Shown here: in pieces, positions 43,452-58,610 of the stretch
Layout: each line of letters opens with the position of its first letter
Numbering within the stretch: the stretch's first letter is position 1
From: Lutibacter sp. A64
GTDB taxonomy: Bacteria; Bacteroidota; Bacteroidia; Flavobacteriales; Flavobacteriaceae
Length of the DNA stretch: 64,000 nt
Assembly (NCBI RefSeq): GCF_022429565.1
Contig: NZ_CP092487.1
Span: 3,800,001 to 3,864,000 of the forward strand
Direction: 5' to 3'
Translations under genes and position numbers: made by a program
The notes under the pieces: generated by a model
Database searches by the model: none
Seen by the model: the letters and a program-made list of their open reading frames with translations, nothing else
Told to the model about the DNA's origin: nothing

Positions 43452-43496
43452 TGTTGCATATAAGCGTTTTTACTGGTGTTTATTACTTGTGCAACA
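43452..43496. promoter_or_regulatory. HTCS operator candidate, GH2 side
   Basis: TGTTGCA (43452-43458), 31 bp, TGCAACA (43490-43496). The identical heptamers with the identical 31-bp spacing occur before susC at 58566-58610. The 42-bp distance to the -7-like box is also the same at both sites. Confidence 0.65.
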
Positions 43497-43538
43497 TTCG
43501 TAGACTATATTTGGTAATTTTTTTTTAAGTAACTGTTG

Positions 43539-43546
43539 TATATTCG
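43539..43546 (+). promoter_or_regulatory. -7 box candidate of the GH2/sulfatase transcript
   Basis: TATATTCG, 7 of 8 positions of TAnnTTTG, starting 42 bp after the operator, the same distance as the TAGATTTG box before susC. A perfect TATATTTG at 43506-43513 is an alternative. Confidence 0.45.
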
Positions 43547-43638
43547 TTTGTGTATAAAAAATAGAATAATATATAGTTAATATGGTATTGAAATTACTGT
43601 AGTAAATTAATATCACAGCAAAAAAATAGATTTTAATA

Positions 43639-46600
43639 ATGCATAAAAAACATAAAATGAGTAAGTATTTAGTCGCACTAATTGTAATAGCTACTTTAAT
43701 ATCATGTAATAAGGTAGTTTTAAATCCAAGTAATAATAATGTTGCTAATAATTGGGAAAATCCAGAATGGGAAAACCCAGAATGGGAAAATCCAGAAATA
43801 TTTCAAATTAATAGAGAAGAACCAACAGCATCATTTTATAAATATAATGAACCAACAGAGGCTTTTGAGAATGATAGTTGGCAAAATTCTTCATTATACC
43901 AATCTTTAAATGGAACTTGGAATTTCTATTATGCAGATAGTGTACAAGCAAGACCTACAGGATTTTATAAAGATGATTTTAGCCTAGAAGGATGGGATAA
44001 AATTGAAGTACCATCAAACTGGGAAATGAAAGGTTTTGGAATACCAATATATACAAATAGAACATATATGTTTCCAGCAAATCCACCTTTTATTCCTCAT
44101 AATACTAATAATGTAGGAAGTTATAAAAGAGATTTTGAAATTTCAGATGATTGGGATGGAAAAGATATTTACTTACATTTTGAAGGTGTAAGTGGTGCAA
44201 TGTATATTTGGGTAAATGGAGAAAAAATTGGTTATAACGAAGGTAGTAAAACAGCAGCAGAGTTTAAAATTACAGATGTTGTTAAAAAAGGAAAAAATAG
44301 CTTAGCAGTTCAAGTATTACGTTGGTCAGATGCCAGTTATATGGAGGATCAAGATTTTTGGAGATTGACAGGTATTGAAAGAGATGTTTATGTATATGCA
44401 ACTAATAAAGTTACATTACGCGATTTTAGAGTAACTTCAGATTTAACAAATAATTTTACAGAAGGTGTATTTAATGTAGATTTAAAAGTTGATAATAATT
44501 CTAAGAAAAACGTTGAAAAAGAAGTTAAAGTTCAATTGTTTGATGGGGATAATGAAGTTTATTCAGCAACTAAAAAAGTTGATTTAGCAAAGGGAAGAAC
44601 TATTGTAAACTTTAATAAAAATATTCCTAATGTAAAAACTTGGAATGCTGAAACACCTAACTTATACACACTTTTACTAACTGTAAACGGTGAATCTACA
44701 GCAATAAAAGTTGGGTTTAGAAATATTGAAATTAAAAACAATCAATTTTTAGTTAATGGAAAAGCTGTTTTATTAAAAGGAGCAAATCTTCACGATCATA
44801 GTGAAACAGAAGGGCATGTAATTTCAGAAGAATTAACAATGCTAGATTTAGAGGTGATGAAACAAAATAACCTGAATGCAATTCGTTGTAGTCATTATCC
44901 TAAAAATCCACACTTTTACAGATTGTGCGATAAGTATGGTTTTTATGTAGTTGATGAGGTTAATATTGAAACTCACGGAATGGGAACTACAAATCAAGGT
45001 TTAGATAATAATAAAAAAGCACAAGCTGTTCACCCAGCATACTTACCGCAATGGAAAGCTATGCACTTGGATAGAACAATTAGAATGTTTGAACGTGATA
45101 AAAACTATCCTTCAATTGTAACTTGGTCTTTAGGTAATGAAGCTGGTAATGGAGACAATTTTGTTGCAACTTATAATTGGTTAAAAGAACAAGATGCTAC
45201 TAGACCAACACAATATGAAGGAGCTACACAATACAGTAATACCGATATTCAAGCTCCAATGTATTGGACAATAGATAGAATGATAAAATACGCAGAAAAT
45301 AACCCTACACGACCATTAATTCAATGTGAATATGCACATGCAATGGGGAATAGTGTTGGAAATTTACAACAATATTGGGACGTTATTGAAAAGTACGATA
45401 TTATGCAAGGTGGATTTATCTGGGATTGGGTAGATCAAGGAATTTTAACTAAAAATGAAGAAGGAGAAGAGTTTTGGGCTTATGGAGGAGATTTAGGTGG
45501 TCAAGATTTATATAACGATCAAAACTTCTGTTTAAATGGAATTGTAAACCCAGACAGAACTGCTCACCCTGCTTTATATGAGGTGAAGAAAGTATATCAA
45601 TACATAAAGTTTAAACCAGTTAATTTAAGTAATGGAGAAATTTCAATTAAAAATATTTATGATTTCACCAATTTAAACGAGTTTGATTTTACGTGGAAAC
45701 TTTTAGAAAATGGAGTTGAAATATCTGAAGGAAAAATACCAACGTTAGATATCGATTCTTATGAAACGAAAACAGTTAAAATTAACATTCCAAAGTTAAA
45801 TAATGCATCAGCAGAGTATCACTTAAATGTTTATGCTTTAAATAAAAATGAAACAGACTTAATGCCTGTAGGACATGTTGTTGCTTTTGAACAATTTCAA
45901 TTAACAGCGAATAAATTAACTGCTTCAGAAAGTACAATAAGCAGTGAAATTTCTATTAGTACTACAGATAATATTACAACTCTTTCAAATGCTAATTTTG
46001 AAGTTAAATTTAATACAAAAACAGGTTTATTAGATGCTTTAGATTATGGAAATGGAAACTTATTGGTTAAAGGTGTAACTCCTAACTTTTGGAGAGCAAC
46101 TACTGATAATGATTTTGGAGCAAAATCACCTGAACTTTTAGGTGTATGGAAAGAAGCGACTGACACACAAATGTTAACAAAAGTTAGTTTATCAAGTAAT
46201 GGAGAAGAATTAGATTTATCTAAAGCTTTAACCGTAAATAATAATGTTAAAATTGAAACAACATATAATTTACCTTCAGTTAAGGGTCAAATAGTTGTAA
46301 GTTATACAGTAAATGGGCAAGGTGAAATTTCAGTAAATAACCAGTTGAAAAATATAAGTTCAGAACTGCCAATTTTACCAAGATTTGGAAATAATTTTAT
46401 TATAAATAACCAATACCAATCAGTTACTTGGTTTGGAAGAGGACCACACGAAAATTATAACGATAGAAATACCGCTGCTTTAGTTGGACTGTATAAAGCC
46501 TCAGTTGAAGAATTATACTTCCCTTATATTAGACCACAAGAAAATGGATATAGAACAGATGTACGTTATATAGAGTTTGTTAATGCGGCAGGAAAAGGAT

Positions 46601-56759: not shown

Positions 56760-58298
56760 ATGAGAACAAAACTAAAATACATTATTATCGGTTTAATTTT
56801 TCAATTTTCTTTTGGTCAACAAAAAGATAGTTTAAAAGTTATAATTACTCCTGAAGTTGAATATCAAACTATTCATAATTTTGGTGCTTCAGACGCCTGG
56901 ACAACCCAGTTTGTAGGTAATTGGCCTTTAGAAAAAAAGAATGCAATTGCCGACTTATTATTCGGTTTAGAGTACGATTCAACAGGGTCTCCAAAGGGAA
57001 TTGGCTTGGCGGCTTGGCGGTTTAACATTGGGGCAGGAAGTGCAGAGCAAGGTGCATTAAGCGGTATTAAAGATCCTTGGAGAAGAGCAGAAGGTTTTTT
57101 ACAAGACGACCTTAGTTATAATTGGAAAAGTCAAAGTGGTCAACAATGGTTTTTGTTAGCTGCAAAGCAACGAGGTGTAAAAGATTTTGTTGGTTTTGTA
57201 AATAGCCCTCCAGTACAATTAACTAAAAATAATAAAGCATACCCATCTAATGCAAATTCATCAAACCTTGCGGAAGCGAATTATAATTCTTATGCTGTTT
57301 TTTTGGCTGAAGTTGTAAAGAACTTTAAGCGTAATTTAAATATTGACTTGACTTATATAAGTCCTTTTAACGAGCCGCAATGGGAGTGGATAAAAGGAAG
57401 TCAAGAAGGTTCTCCTTGGAATAACAATGAACTAGCATTAGCAACAAAGGCTATTGATAAAGTTTTTAATGAGGAAAATTTAAAAACAAAGTTGGAAATC
57501 TCAGAAGCAGGTTCTATTGGTTATTTAACTTCCGAAAAAACTAAGTTTAATAATAGAAGTAATCAAGTAGAAGAGTTTTTTAATACCGAAAGCAGTAATT
57601 ATATAGGAGACTTAAATTCGGTAGCATCAAAATTTGCAGGACATAGTTACTTTACTACTTGGAAAATTTCAAAACTGAAAAAAGAACGTGAAAAAATAGC
57701 TGAAAAGTTACAAGAATACCCCAATCTTGAATATTGGATGACTGAATACTGTGTTTTGGAAAATAATGAAGAAATTAAAGGAAAAGGGAAAGATTTAGGG
57801 ATGAATACGGCATTGTATGTTTCAAGGGTCATTCATTCAGATTTAACAATATCAAACGCAAGTGCTTGGCATTGGTGGATTGCATTAAGCGCTTATAATT
57901 ATAAAGATGGTTTAATTTATGTTGATAAAGCAACAGATGATGGTGAGTTTGTAGACTCTAAATTATTGTGGGCATTGGGTAATTATGCGCGATTTATTAG
58001 ACCTAAGGCTAAAAGAATTAAAGTAGACTATAAAGATTTAAACTCTATAGAAAATTTAAAAAATGGTTTATTAGTTTCAGCATATAAAAATAGCGATAAT
58101 AGTATTGTTGTTGTAATTGTTAATCAACAAAAAAGTGCTGTACATTTAGATATGTTAATTGATGGTACTTCAACATTTAAAGTAAAAAAAATGTACACAA
58201 CAAATAAATCTTTAAACTTAAAAAATGTTGAAATAAAGAATAATAAGCCACTTATAATTTTAGGAGCATCTATAAATACTATAATTTATGAAAAATAG
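56760..58298 (+). CDS. GH30 family glycosidase, likely beta-1,6-galactanase-like
   Basis: A 512-aa exported enzyme with an ordinary signal peptide (about 1-19, FSFGQ). The TIM-barrel has acid/base E205 in SPFNEPQWEW and nucleophile E329 in WMTEYC, and ASAWHWWIALSAYNY behind; a C-terminal beta-sandwich (about 410-512) completes the GH30 fold. The opening HNFGASDAWTTQF with GLAAWRFNIGAGS resembles beta-1,6-galactanases of this family more than glucosylceramidases. The alternative is a GH30 exo-enzyme for beta-xylose or beta-fucose. Confidence 0.82.
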   Translation: MRTKLKYIIIGLIFQFSFGQQKDSLKVIITPEVEYQTIHNFGASDAWTTQFVGNWPLEKKNAIADLLFGLEYDSTGSPKGIGLAAWRFNIGAGSAEQGALSGIKDPWRRAEGFLQDDLSYNWKSQSGQQWFLLAAKQRGVKDFVGFVNSPPVQLTKNNKAYPSNANSSNLAEANYNSYAVFLAEVVKNFKRNLNIDLTYISPFNEPQWEWIKGSQEGSPWNNNELALATKAIDKVFNEENLKTKLEISEAGSIGYLTSEKTKFNNRSNQVEEFFNTESSNYIGDLNSVASKFAGHSYFTTWKISKLKKEREKIAEKLQEYPNLEYWMTEYCVLENNEEIKGKGKDLGMNTALYVSRVIHSDLTISNASAWHWWIALSAYNYKDGLIYVDKATDDGEFVDSKLLWALGNYARFIRPKAKRIKVDYKDLNSIENLKNGLLVSAYKNSDNSIVVVIVNQQKSAVHLDMLIDGTSTFKVKKMYTTNKSLNLKNVEIKNNKPLIILGASINTIIYEK

Positions 58299-58339
58299 TT
58301 TTTTATTATAAAAAATAATACATATTTTAATTTTAATTG

Positions 58340-58414
58340 AATCTTCTATTGTTAATTATTTGATATTACTTTTAAATAGTAATGCTTAATTTTAAAAATA
58401 GAAGATTTTTTTTT
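58340..58414 (+). terminator. Terminator after the GH30 gene
   Basis: Outer arms AATCTTCTATT / AATAGAAGATT with an inner hairpin ATTACT / AGTAAT, followed by a long T run. It separates the enzyme genes from the SusC/SusD unit. Confidence 0.75.
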
Positions 58415-58565
58415 GTATAAGTTTTGGGAATGTACTAATTATTTCTATCGGTTTAAAACCTTTTTCTAAGCTTTTTATTGAATGTTAAATCTAATATTAA
58501 ATAGTATATTTATTTTTTTTGAGTATGTGATTATAGGTGTTAGTTTGTTTTAATAGGAGTTAAAT

Positions 58566-58610
58566 TGTTGCAAGCGGTTAAATACCTGTTATTTATTGTT
58601 ATTTGCAACA
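58566..58610. promoter_or_regulatory. HTCS operator candidate, susC side
   Basis: TGTTGCA (58566-58572), 31 bp, TGCAACA (58604-58610), extended here to TTGTTGCAA / TTGCAACAA. Same heptamers and spacing as at 43452-43496. It lies in the 417-bp gap before susC, which holds no gene. Confidence 0.65.

Follow-up and report, generated by a model that had tools for sequence, protein, structure and literature searches.

How a single regulator might switch on two sets of genes 15 kb apart is the question raised by a probable seaweed-sugar locus in a 64,000-nucleotide stretch of the Lutibacter sp. A64 chromosome (contig NZ_CP092487.1, positions 3,800,001 to 3,864,000; hereafter the window), in which a hybrid two-component system (HTCS) gene is followed by a long run of enzyme genes and then by susC and susD. 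An initial annotation had pointed to two sites sharing the heptamer pair TGTTGCA-N31-TGCAACA, one before the enzyme genes and one before susC, as a candidate operator of the HTCS. We put at about 85% the probability that both sites are operators of this HTCS, through which it would activate the enzyme and susCD operons together by way of a composite operator; binding, activation, transcription starts and stoichiometry are all predicted from sequence. The site is conserved, keeps company with one HTCS clade and stands at a nearly fixed distance from its promoter.

The two 45-bp sites (43452-43496 and 58566-58610) match the pattern with 0 mismatches, and at both a gap of 42 bp separates the operator from a -7 box (TATATTCG at site 1, TAGATTTG at site 2), exactly as annotated. 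Chance exact matches in the window had a mean of 0.00 and a maximum of 0 in 100 dinucleotide shuffles, and the 4.03-Mb genome contains the pattern in 2 places, both at this locus, with 0 matches to a reversed control pattern. The unrelated matches elsewhere that would have spoken against an operator are absent at exact stringency; relaxing the spacer to 28-36 adds two places in this genome, both coding, two in G003 and one in G026 (both Lutibacter). All five lie inside frames of at least 321 codons, with no TAnnTT at +41/+42 on either side. A repeat present twice in one genome, in the same orientation and 15 kb apart, might instead have arisen by chance or serve recombination or phase variation, a reading that retains hardly any probability given the chance expectation above, the single operators at the loci scanned in other genera, the nearly fixed -7 distance and the conservation across genera.

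The Bacteroidota -7 consensus is TAnnTTTG, with its TA at -12 in F. psychrophilum (PMC9723704, in the portion available); it is matched exactly at site 2 and with one mismatch at site 1, as expected of sigma-A promoters. Site 1 also has a perfect TAnnTTTG decoy, TATATTTG, at 43506-43513, 9 bp after the operator, and choosing the imperfect box over it looked selective; the choice is justified because the +42 box, not the decoy, is conserved in orthologues. That box aligns gap-free in G026, G003 and G025 (also Lutibacter), and in G025 it is a perfect TACATTTG. The decoy, rejected as the -7 box of site 1, is present in the near copy G026 and absent from G003 and G025.

Among 38 Lutibacter genomes, four have a close HTCS orthologue (at least 69%) and three have the exact pattern, in two copies each, with zero matches to the control. 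Both sites of G026 and G003 align with those of the window through to the -7 box without gaps. At the G003 locus (L054) a sulfatase gene, instead of a GH2 gene, lies behind site 1, and the GH2 gene lies downstream of susD; compared with the gene order in the window, this indicates that genes have been shuffled behind the first operator and that regulator and operator have stayed put.

A sensor profile search found an HTCS orthologue in 16 of 397 Flavobacteriaceae genomes, and the conservation at orthologous loci that a shared operator calls for was borne out, the site being kept in many genera with nearly equal -7 spacing. The inverted repeat is present at 14 of the 16 loci (no more than 2 mismatches, spacer 30-34) and lies upstream of the HTCS gene at 13 of them; both arms are exact in 11 of these, and the other two have 1 and 2 mismatches, respectively. 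Exact sites occur in Algibacter miyuki and a Wenyingzhuangia sp. (sensor identities 57% and 48%), with the boxes TATATTTG and TAATTTCG, respectively, at +42. Searched as a DNA pattern alone, the exact operator occurs in 14 of the 397 genomes (the reversed control in 3): eight matches lie in frames of at least 188 codons, and five (our own and four from other genera) stand beside the HTCS orthologue, with a sulfatase-like gene or susC on the other side (in the window, the GH2 gene). The last match, in G169, is unclear: the only frame containing it has 102 codons, and it probably precedes a small open reading frame of lipoprotein-like type. It is probably a chance match, in a genome where we found no HTCS orthologue and no -7 box in register. 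Scanning 12 whole genomes for exact arms at spacers of 29-35 returned the pattern once in five and twice in one (second copy coding), did not return it in G025, G243, G383, G271, G358 or G048, and returned the reversed control in two of the 12. Genome specificity and orthologue conservation thus support the annotated candidate as a putative shared HTCS operator.

Three of the orthologues, in G271, G243 and G383 (loci L124, L122 and L123), form one clade (99/99) within the tree. Here a LamG-like gene lies directly upstream of the HTCS gene, replacing the divergent target, and the site is instead intergenic before susC. A scan at no more than 1 mismatch had suggested that these genomes have no operator, a conclusion overturned by a left-half profile and a box-anchored scan. 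The susC-proximal site of G271 has 2 mismatches, a degraded right arm and TACATTTG at +42; that of G243 has 3 mismatches, a perfect right arm, a perfect further TGTTGC outside the left arm and TAACTTTA at +42. For comparison, 785 kb of paralogous HTCS loci contain 0 repeat-plus-box matches at up to 2 mismatches, 3 at up to 3 and 23 at up to 4. In G383 and G243, left-half copies also stand face to face at a distance of about 170 bp.

Searches across the class and across the order, each of 395 genomes, brought in G746 and G634 and nothing else. A search of the family of G746 (199 genomes) added G1288, whose contig breaks off too early to bear on the operator, and genus searches around G418 (7 genomes) and G165 (1) yielded nothing beyond one genome that, across the operator region compared, matches the Wenyingzhuangia locus. 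At the distant orthologue of G746 (L145, another family), TGCAACA, TGAGAC and TAAATTTG at +42 stand in the same register; its left arm is doubtful (TGTTTCA at a spacer of 27). L101, a distant locus (32% over part of the sensor), had no site below 3 mismatches at spacers 30-32 and was left out of the counts.

Alignment of these operators upheld both annotated heptamers as arms (left and right each perfect in 17 of 18 tabulated operators) and revised their role: they are the inner part of a larger element, to which an outer direct copy of the left arm, a GGGT and often a TGAGA have to be added. Common to the 16 divergent-region operators are ATGTT 22 bp upstream of the left arm (G at -20 in 16/16) and GGGT at -8 to -5 outside that arm; little is conserved between the arms. 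The outer left copy averages 5.0/7 matches against a shuffle maximum of 3.25 (500 shuffles), and is TGTTGC itself in six of the 18. In 13 of the 18, a TGAGA-like element precedes the box by 27 bp. These arm and outer-copy tabulations omit G026, a near copy of G000; the outer-copy scoring also omits two site-2 operators, and the logos exclude G025, G243, G383, G271 and G746. From the dyad centre to the TA of the TAnnTT box the distance is 64.5-65.0 bp in all 19 aligned sites (two of them the G026 sites, near copies of those in the window), at spacers of 30-33; at spacer 33, each arm lies one base further from the centre. The last two letters of the box vary among these sites and the position of TAnnTT is constant.

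The strongly conserved copy 22 bp from the left arm invites a simpler reading, that the operator is a direct repeat of the published type alone and the inverted right arm is part of the core promoter or the site of another factor. Published HTCS motifs are indeed direct repeats of about 21 bp (PMC3878776, available portion), clear period-21 direct repeats exist at two other HTCS loci of the same genome (L059 and L061), and the right arm is the degraded one in G271 and G025; yet that arm is perfect as often as the left, is the sole perfect arm in G243 and G383, and at site 2 both arms are perfect where the outer copy is weak. On this evidence we regard a direct repeat alone as unlikely. Equally unlikely, in our judgement, are back-to-back operators in which the HTCS gene on the divergent side answers to the left half and the target operon to the right. 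Such an arrangement would suit the 13 of 16 family loci with the site upstream of the HTCS gene, those inspected having it in the divergent region, but arms or their remnants are also kept at site 2, in G271 and in G243, where the HTCS gene is not the divergent neighbor, and the mirrored +42 position has no -7 box in the 12 operators examined.

Pfam domains of the regulator in the window, all above cut-off, are Reg_prop, Y_Y_Y, HisKA, HATPase_c, Response_reg and HTH_18, giving the propeller sensor, histidine kinase, receiver and AraC-type DNA-binding domain of an HTCS in a single chain, and its gene sits with susC/susD and carbohydrate-active enzyme genes. The recognition helices (GMSRANLYRK and GF[NS]NQ[KR]YF) are the same in 19 orthologues, save Ser for Asn in G271, and differ in paralogues; the Wenyingzhuangia HTCS, whose frame is open but for which no open reading frame passed the filter, was left out of the protein tables. 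Although TGTTGCA half-sites could suit another helix-turn-helix protein, and binding by the HTCS is itself a prediction, it is quite improbable that a different regulator binds the repeat: the repeat goes with this HTCS clade, none of 40 paralogous HTCS loci has it, and where the genes behind the operator change, HTCS and operator stay.

The same clade is unusual in its receiver. S/CHIP, a motif in the receiver alpha3-beta4 loop, is a majority rather than a defining feature of HTCSs, and has been linked to an inhibitory interaction of the receiver with the DNA-binding domain by structure prediction, phosphorylation kinetics and substitutions (PMC11253607, in the part available). The HTCS of the window has SNIP instead. 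Its orthologues keep the His of the motif in two of 19 cases (G265 and G271), compared with 40 of 41 rows from paralogue loci of the genus, the odd row (NEVL) looking like a misaligned non-HTCS protein. With the His lost in 17 of 19 orthologues, most of the clade may lack the lock between receiver and DNA-binding domain.

Known operators of AraC-type proteins provide partial precedents. The AraC I1-I2 site, adjacent to its promoter, is a direct repeat with a period of about 21 bp; most orthologues of the present system have a comparable repeat, and the AraC site is not known to have an inverted copy at this distance. For 16 HTCSs of Bacteroides thetaiotaomicron, all predicted motifs are direct repeats at an average distance of 21 bp (PMC3878776, again as available). 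The present system resembles these in having an AraC-type HTCS beside susCD, repeated sites before operons predicted to be co-regulated and, in most orthologues, a left half that is a direct repeat of about 22 bp. It differs in the inverted copy that faces this repeat across 30-34 bp at 14 of the 16 family loci, which sets it apart from direct repeats only, and in the dyad about 65 bp from the -7 box. Inverted sites do exist within the AraC family: the RhaR operator of E. coli is an inverted repeat of two 17-bp half-sites with a 17-bp spacer (PMC3870299, in the excerpt available). RhaR is likewise an AraC-family activator with an inverted repeat, whereas here 30-34 bp separate the heptamers, an outer direct copy is present and the protein is a membrane-receptor HTCS; the operator is not of the RhaR/RhaS type. 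The available portion of PMC12125979 contains no HTCS operator, and the titles and abstract openings among the matches listed name no inverted-repeat HTCS operator.

A 31-bp inverted repeat is not a general rule for HTCSs. Spacer 31 was outside the ten most enriched in 44 paralogue upstream regions (those of at least 100 bp among 60 taken at 40 paralogous loci). These regions have an excess of inverted repeats, mainly with short spacers (73 exact vs 25 in shuffles), and of period-21 direct repeats (10 exact 7-mer windows vs 0.3, the windows overlapping and coming from about three loci). Direct repeats with an inverted third copy (23 vs 11.9; 10 shuffles, range 1-18) track the direct-repeat excess (103 vs 47.6). 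At L059 and L061, the clear 21-bp direct repeats GTGTACAC and TATAACCA upstream of susC probably serve two other HTCSs as operators. The position of an HTCS repeat can be predicted only poorly from paralogous susC promoters: among five boxes, the best direct repeat ends 22 bp away in L085 and L090, clearly above shuffles only in L090, the corresponding distances in L088, L092 and L063 being 17, 28 and 44 bp; at L061 the repeat is 22 bp before a box but distant from its susC.

Several observations weigh against composite HTCS operators at the two sites. The layout differs from the direct repeat published for HTCSs of gut bacteria. In the window itself the outer copies are weak: that of site 1 reads TGTCTA (3/6), and the TGTTTT of site 2 is at 20 bp, against the period of 22 in the left half of the divergent-region operators. 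The right flank scores 2.5/7 at the 22-bp offset, with no clear copy, which makes a facing second pair weak; its best offset is -34, 34 bp outside the right arm, where 3.0/7 exceeds the shuffle maximum of 2.81 (500 shuffles) and is unexplained. G025 has a degenerate right arm, AGAGACA, with the left arm kept and the box still at +42. The spacer of G265 is 34 and its box ambiguous, TAGTTTTA at +42 or TATATTCG at +26, with 66.5 bp from centre to box if the former is taken. The 3-mismatch score of G243 is equalled by a second match inside its HTCS gene. G383 is without a recognizable left arm, having just a perfect right arm and TACATTTA, and by itself proves nothing because right arm plus box is near chance (0.59 per 20 kb at up to 4 mismatches). 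In the distant relative G634 there is no site within the 5.4 kb of sequence scanned. Lastly, the orthologous sites are not independent of each other.

The genes of the locus encode the HTCS, a GH2 enzyme, five sulfatases, a DUF2961 protein, a GH30 enzyme, SusC and SusD, and past the window end come further sulfatase, GH2, GH29-type and GH43 genes of the same locus (Table 1). Its substrate is probably a sulfated, fucose-containing algal glycan. The hairpin and T run between the GH30 gene and site 2 fit the two separate transcripts that the initial annotation had predicted. Upstream of the locus, at 32281-34068, translations suggest a LytS/LytR-like sensor and regulator pair beside mevalonate-pathway-like genes, apparently unrelated to the sugar locus.

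Table 1. Regulator gene, operator elements and predicted transcripts, in window coordinates
Feature	Position	Strand	Remarks
HTCS regulator gene	39219..43301	-	1360 aa; proposed binder of both operators, from Pfam domains and from orthologues in other genera that adjoin this operator
Site 1 outer copy TGTCTA	43430..43435	+	direct orientation, 22 bp upstream of left arm; 3/6 letters of TGTTGC
Site 1 left arm TGTTGCA	43452..43458	+	pattern match
Site 1 right arm (TGCAACA on + strand)	43490..43496	-	pattern match
Site 1 TGGTAA	43512..43517	+	aligns with TGAGAA of many orthologues; 27 bp before -7 box; possible -33-type element or degenerate fourth half-site
Site 1 -7 box TATATTCG	43539..43546	+	transcription predicted to start near 43551, taking TA as -12 (as in F. 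psychrophilum)
First predicted transcript	43639..58298	+	GH2, five sulfatases, DUF2961 protein, GH30; presumed single transcript
Terminator-like hairpin, then T run	58339..58408	+	3' of GH30 gene; -18.6 kcal/mol, z -5.6
Site 2 TGTTTT	58546..58551	+	20 bp upstream of left arm; a weaker form of the outer copy, also in G003
Site 2 left arm TGTTGCA	58566..58572	+	pattern match
Site 2 right arm (TGCAACA on + strand)	58604..58610	-	pattern match
Site 2 AGAGAA	58626..58631	+	27 bp upstream of -7 box
Site 2 -7 box TAGATTTG	58653..58660	+	predicted transcription start about 58665
Second predicted transcript, start	58716..63368	+	susC 58716-61778, susD 61791-63368; locus continues beyond window

In the mechanism that we favor, the HTCS would sense its glycan in the periplasm, and its receiver and AraC-type domain would act at each operator to activate a sigma-A-type promoter with its -7 box 65 bp away from the dyad centre, so that the enzyme and susCD operons would be switched on together. 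On its left the composite operator would have a repeat in direct orientation with a period of about 22 bp, similar to the published HTCS arrangement (consensus ATGTTG...GGGT...ATGTTGCA); opposite it would stand the inverted copy TGCAACA at about -61 to -55, followed by TGAGA or TGGTA at about -39 to -35. Two receptor dimers facing each other seem the likeliest occupancy, the right-hand one contacting polymerase and the left-hand one stabilizing it.

A bolder and more tentative proposal, which we doubt more than we believe, is that these sites form a distinct operator class, in which two membrane-tethered dimers (four AraC domains) would bind head-to-head on facing repeats and the dyad, not an arm, would be set 65 bp from the -7 box. 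Since the His belonging to the S/CHIP lock, which in most HTCSs holds back the DNA-binding domain, has been lost in most of the clade, the receptors may occupy the operator before glycan arrives, phosphorylation then switching polymerase contact rather than binding.

HTCS operator motifs among the literature matches listed, in the portions available, are computational predictions of direct repeats in gut Bacteroides. This flavobacterial HTCS clade has a sharply defined operator, kept across genera at a nearly fixed promoter distance, which would make its regulon readable from sequence and gives a precise target for footprinting. The pairing of an unusual operator with an unusual receiver motif may, in turn, make the role of the S/CHIP lock testable.

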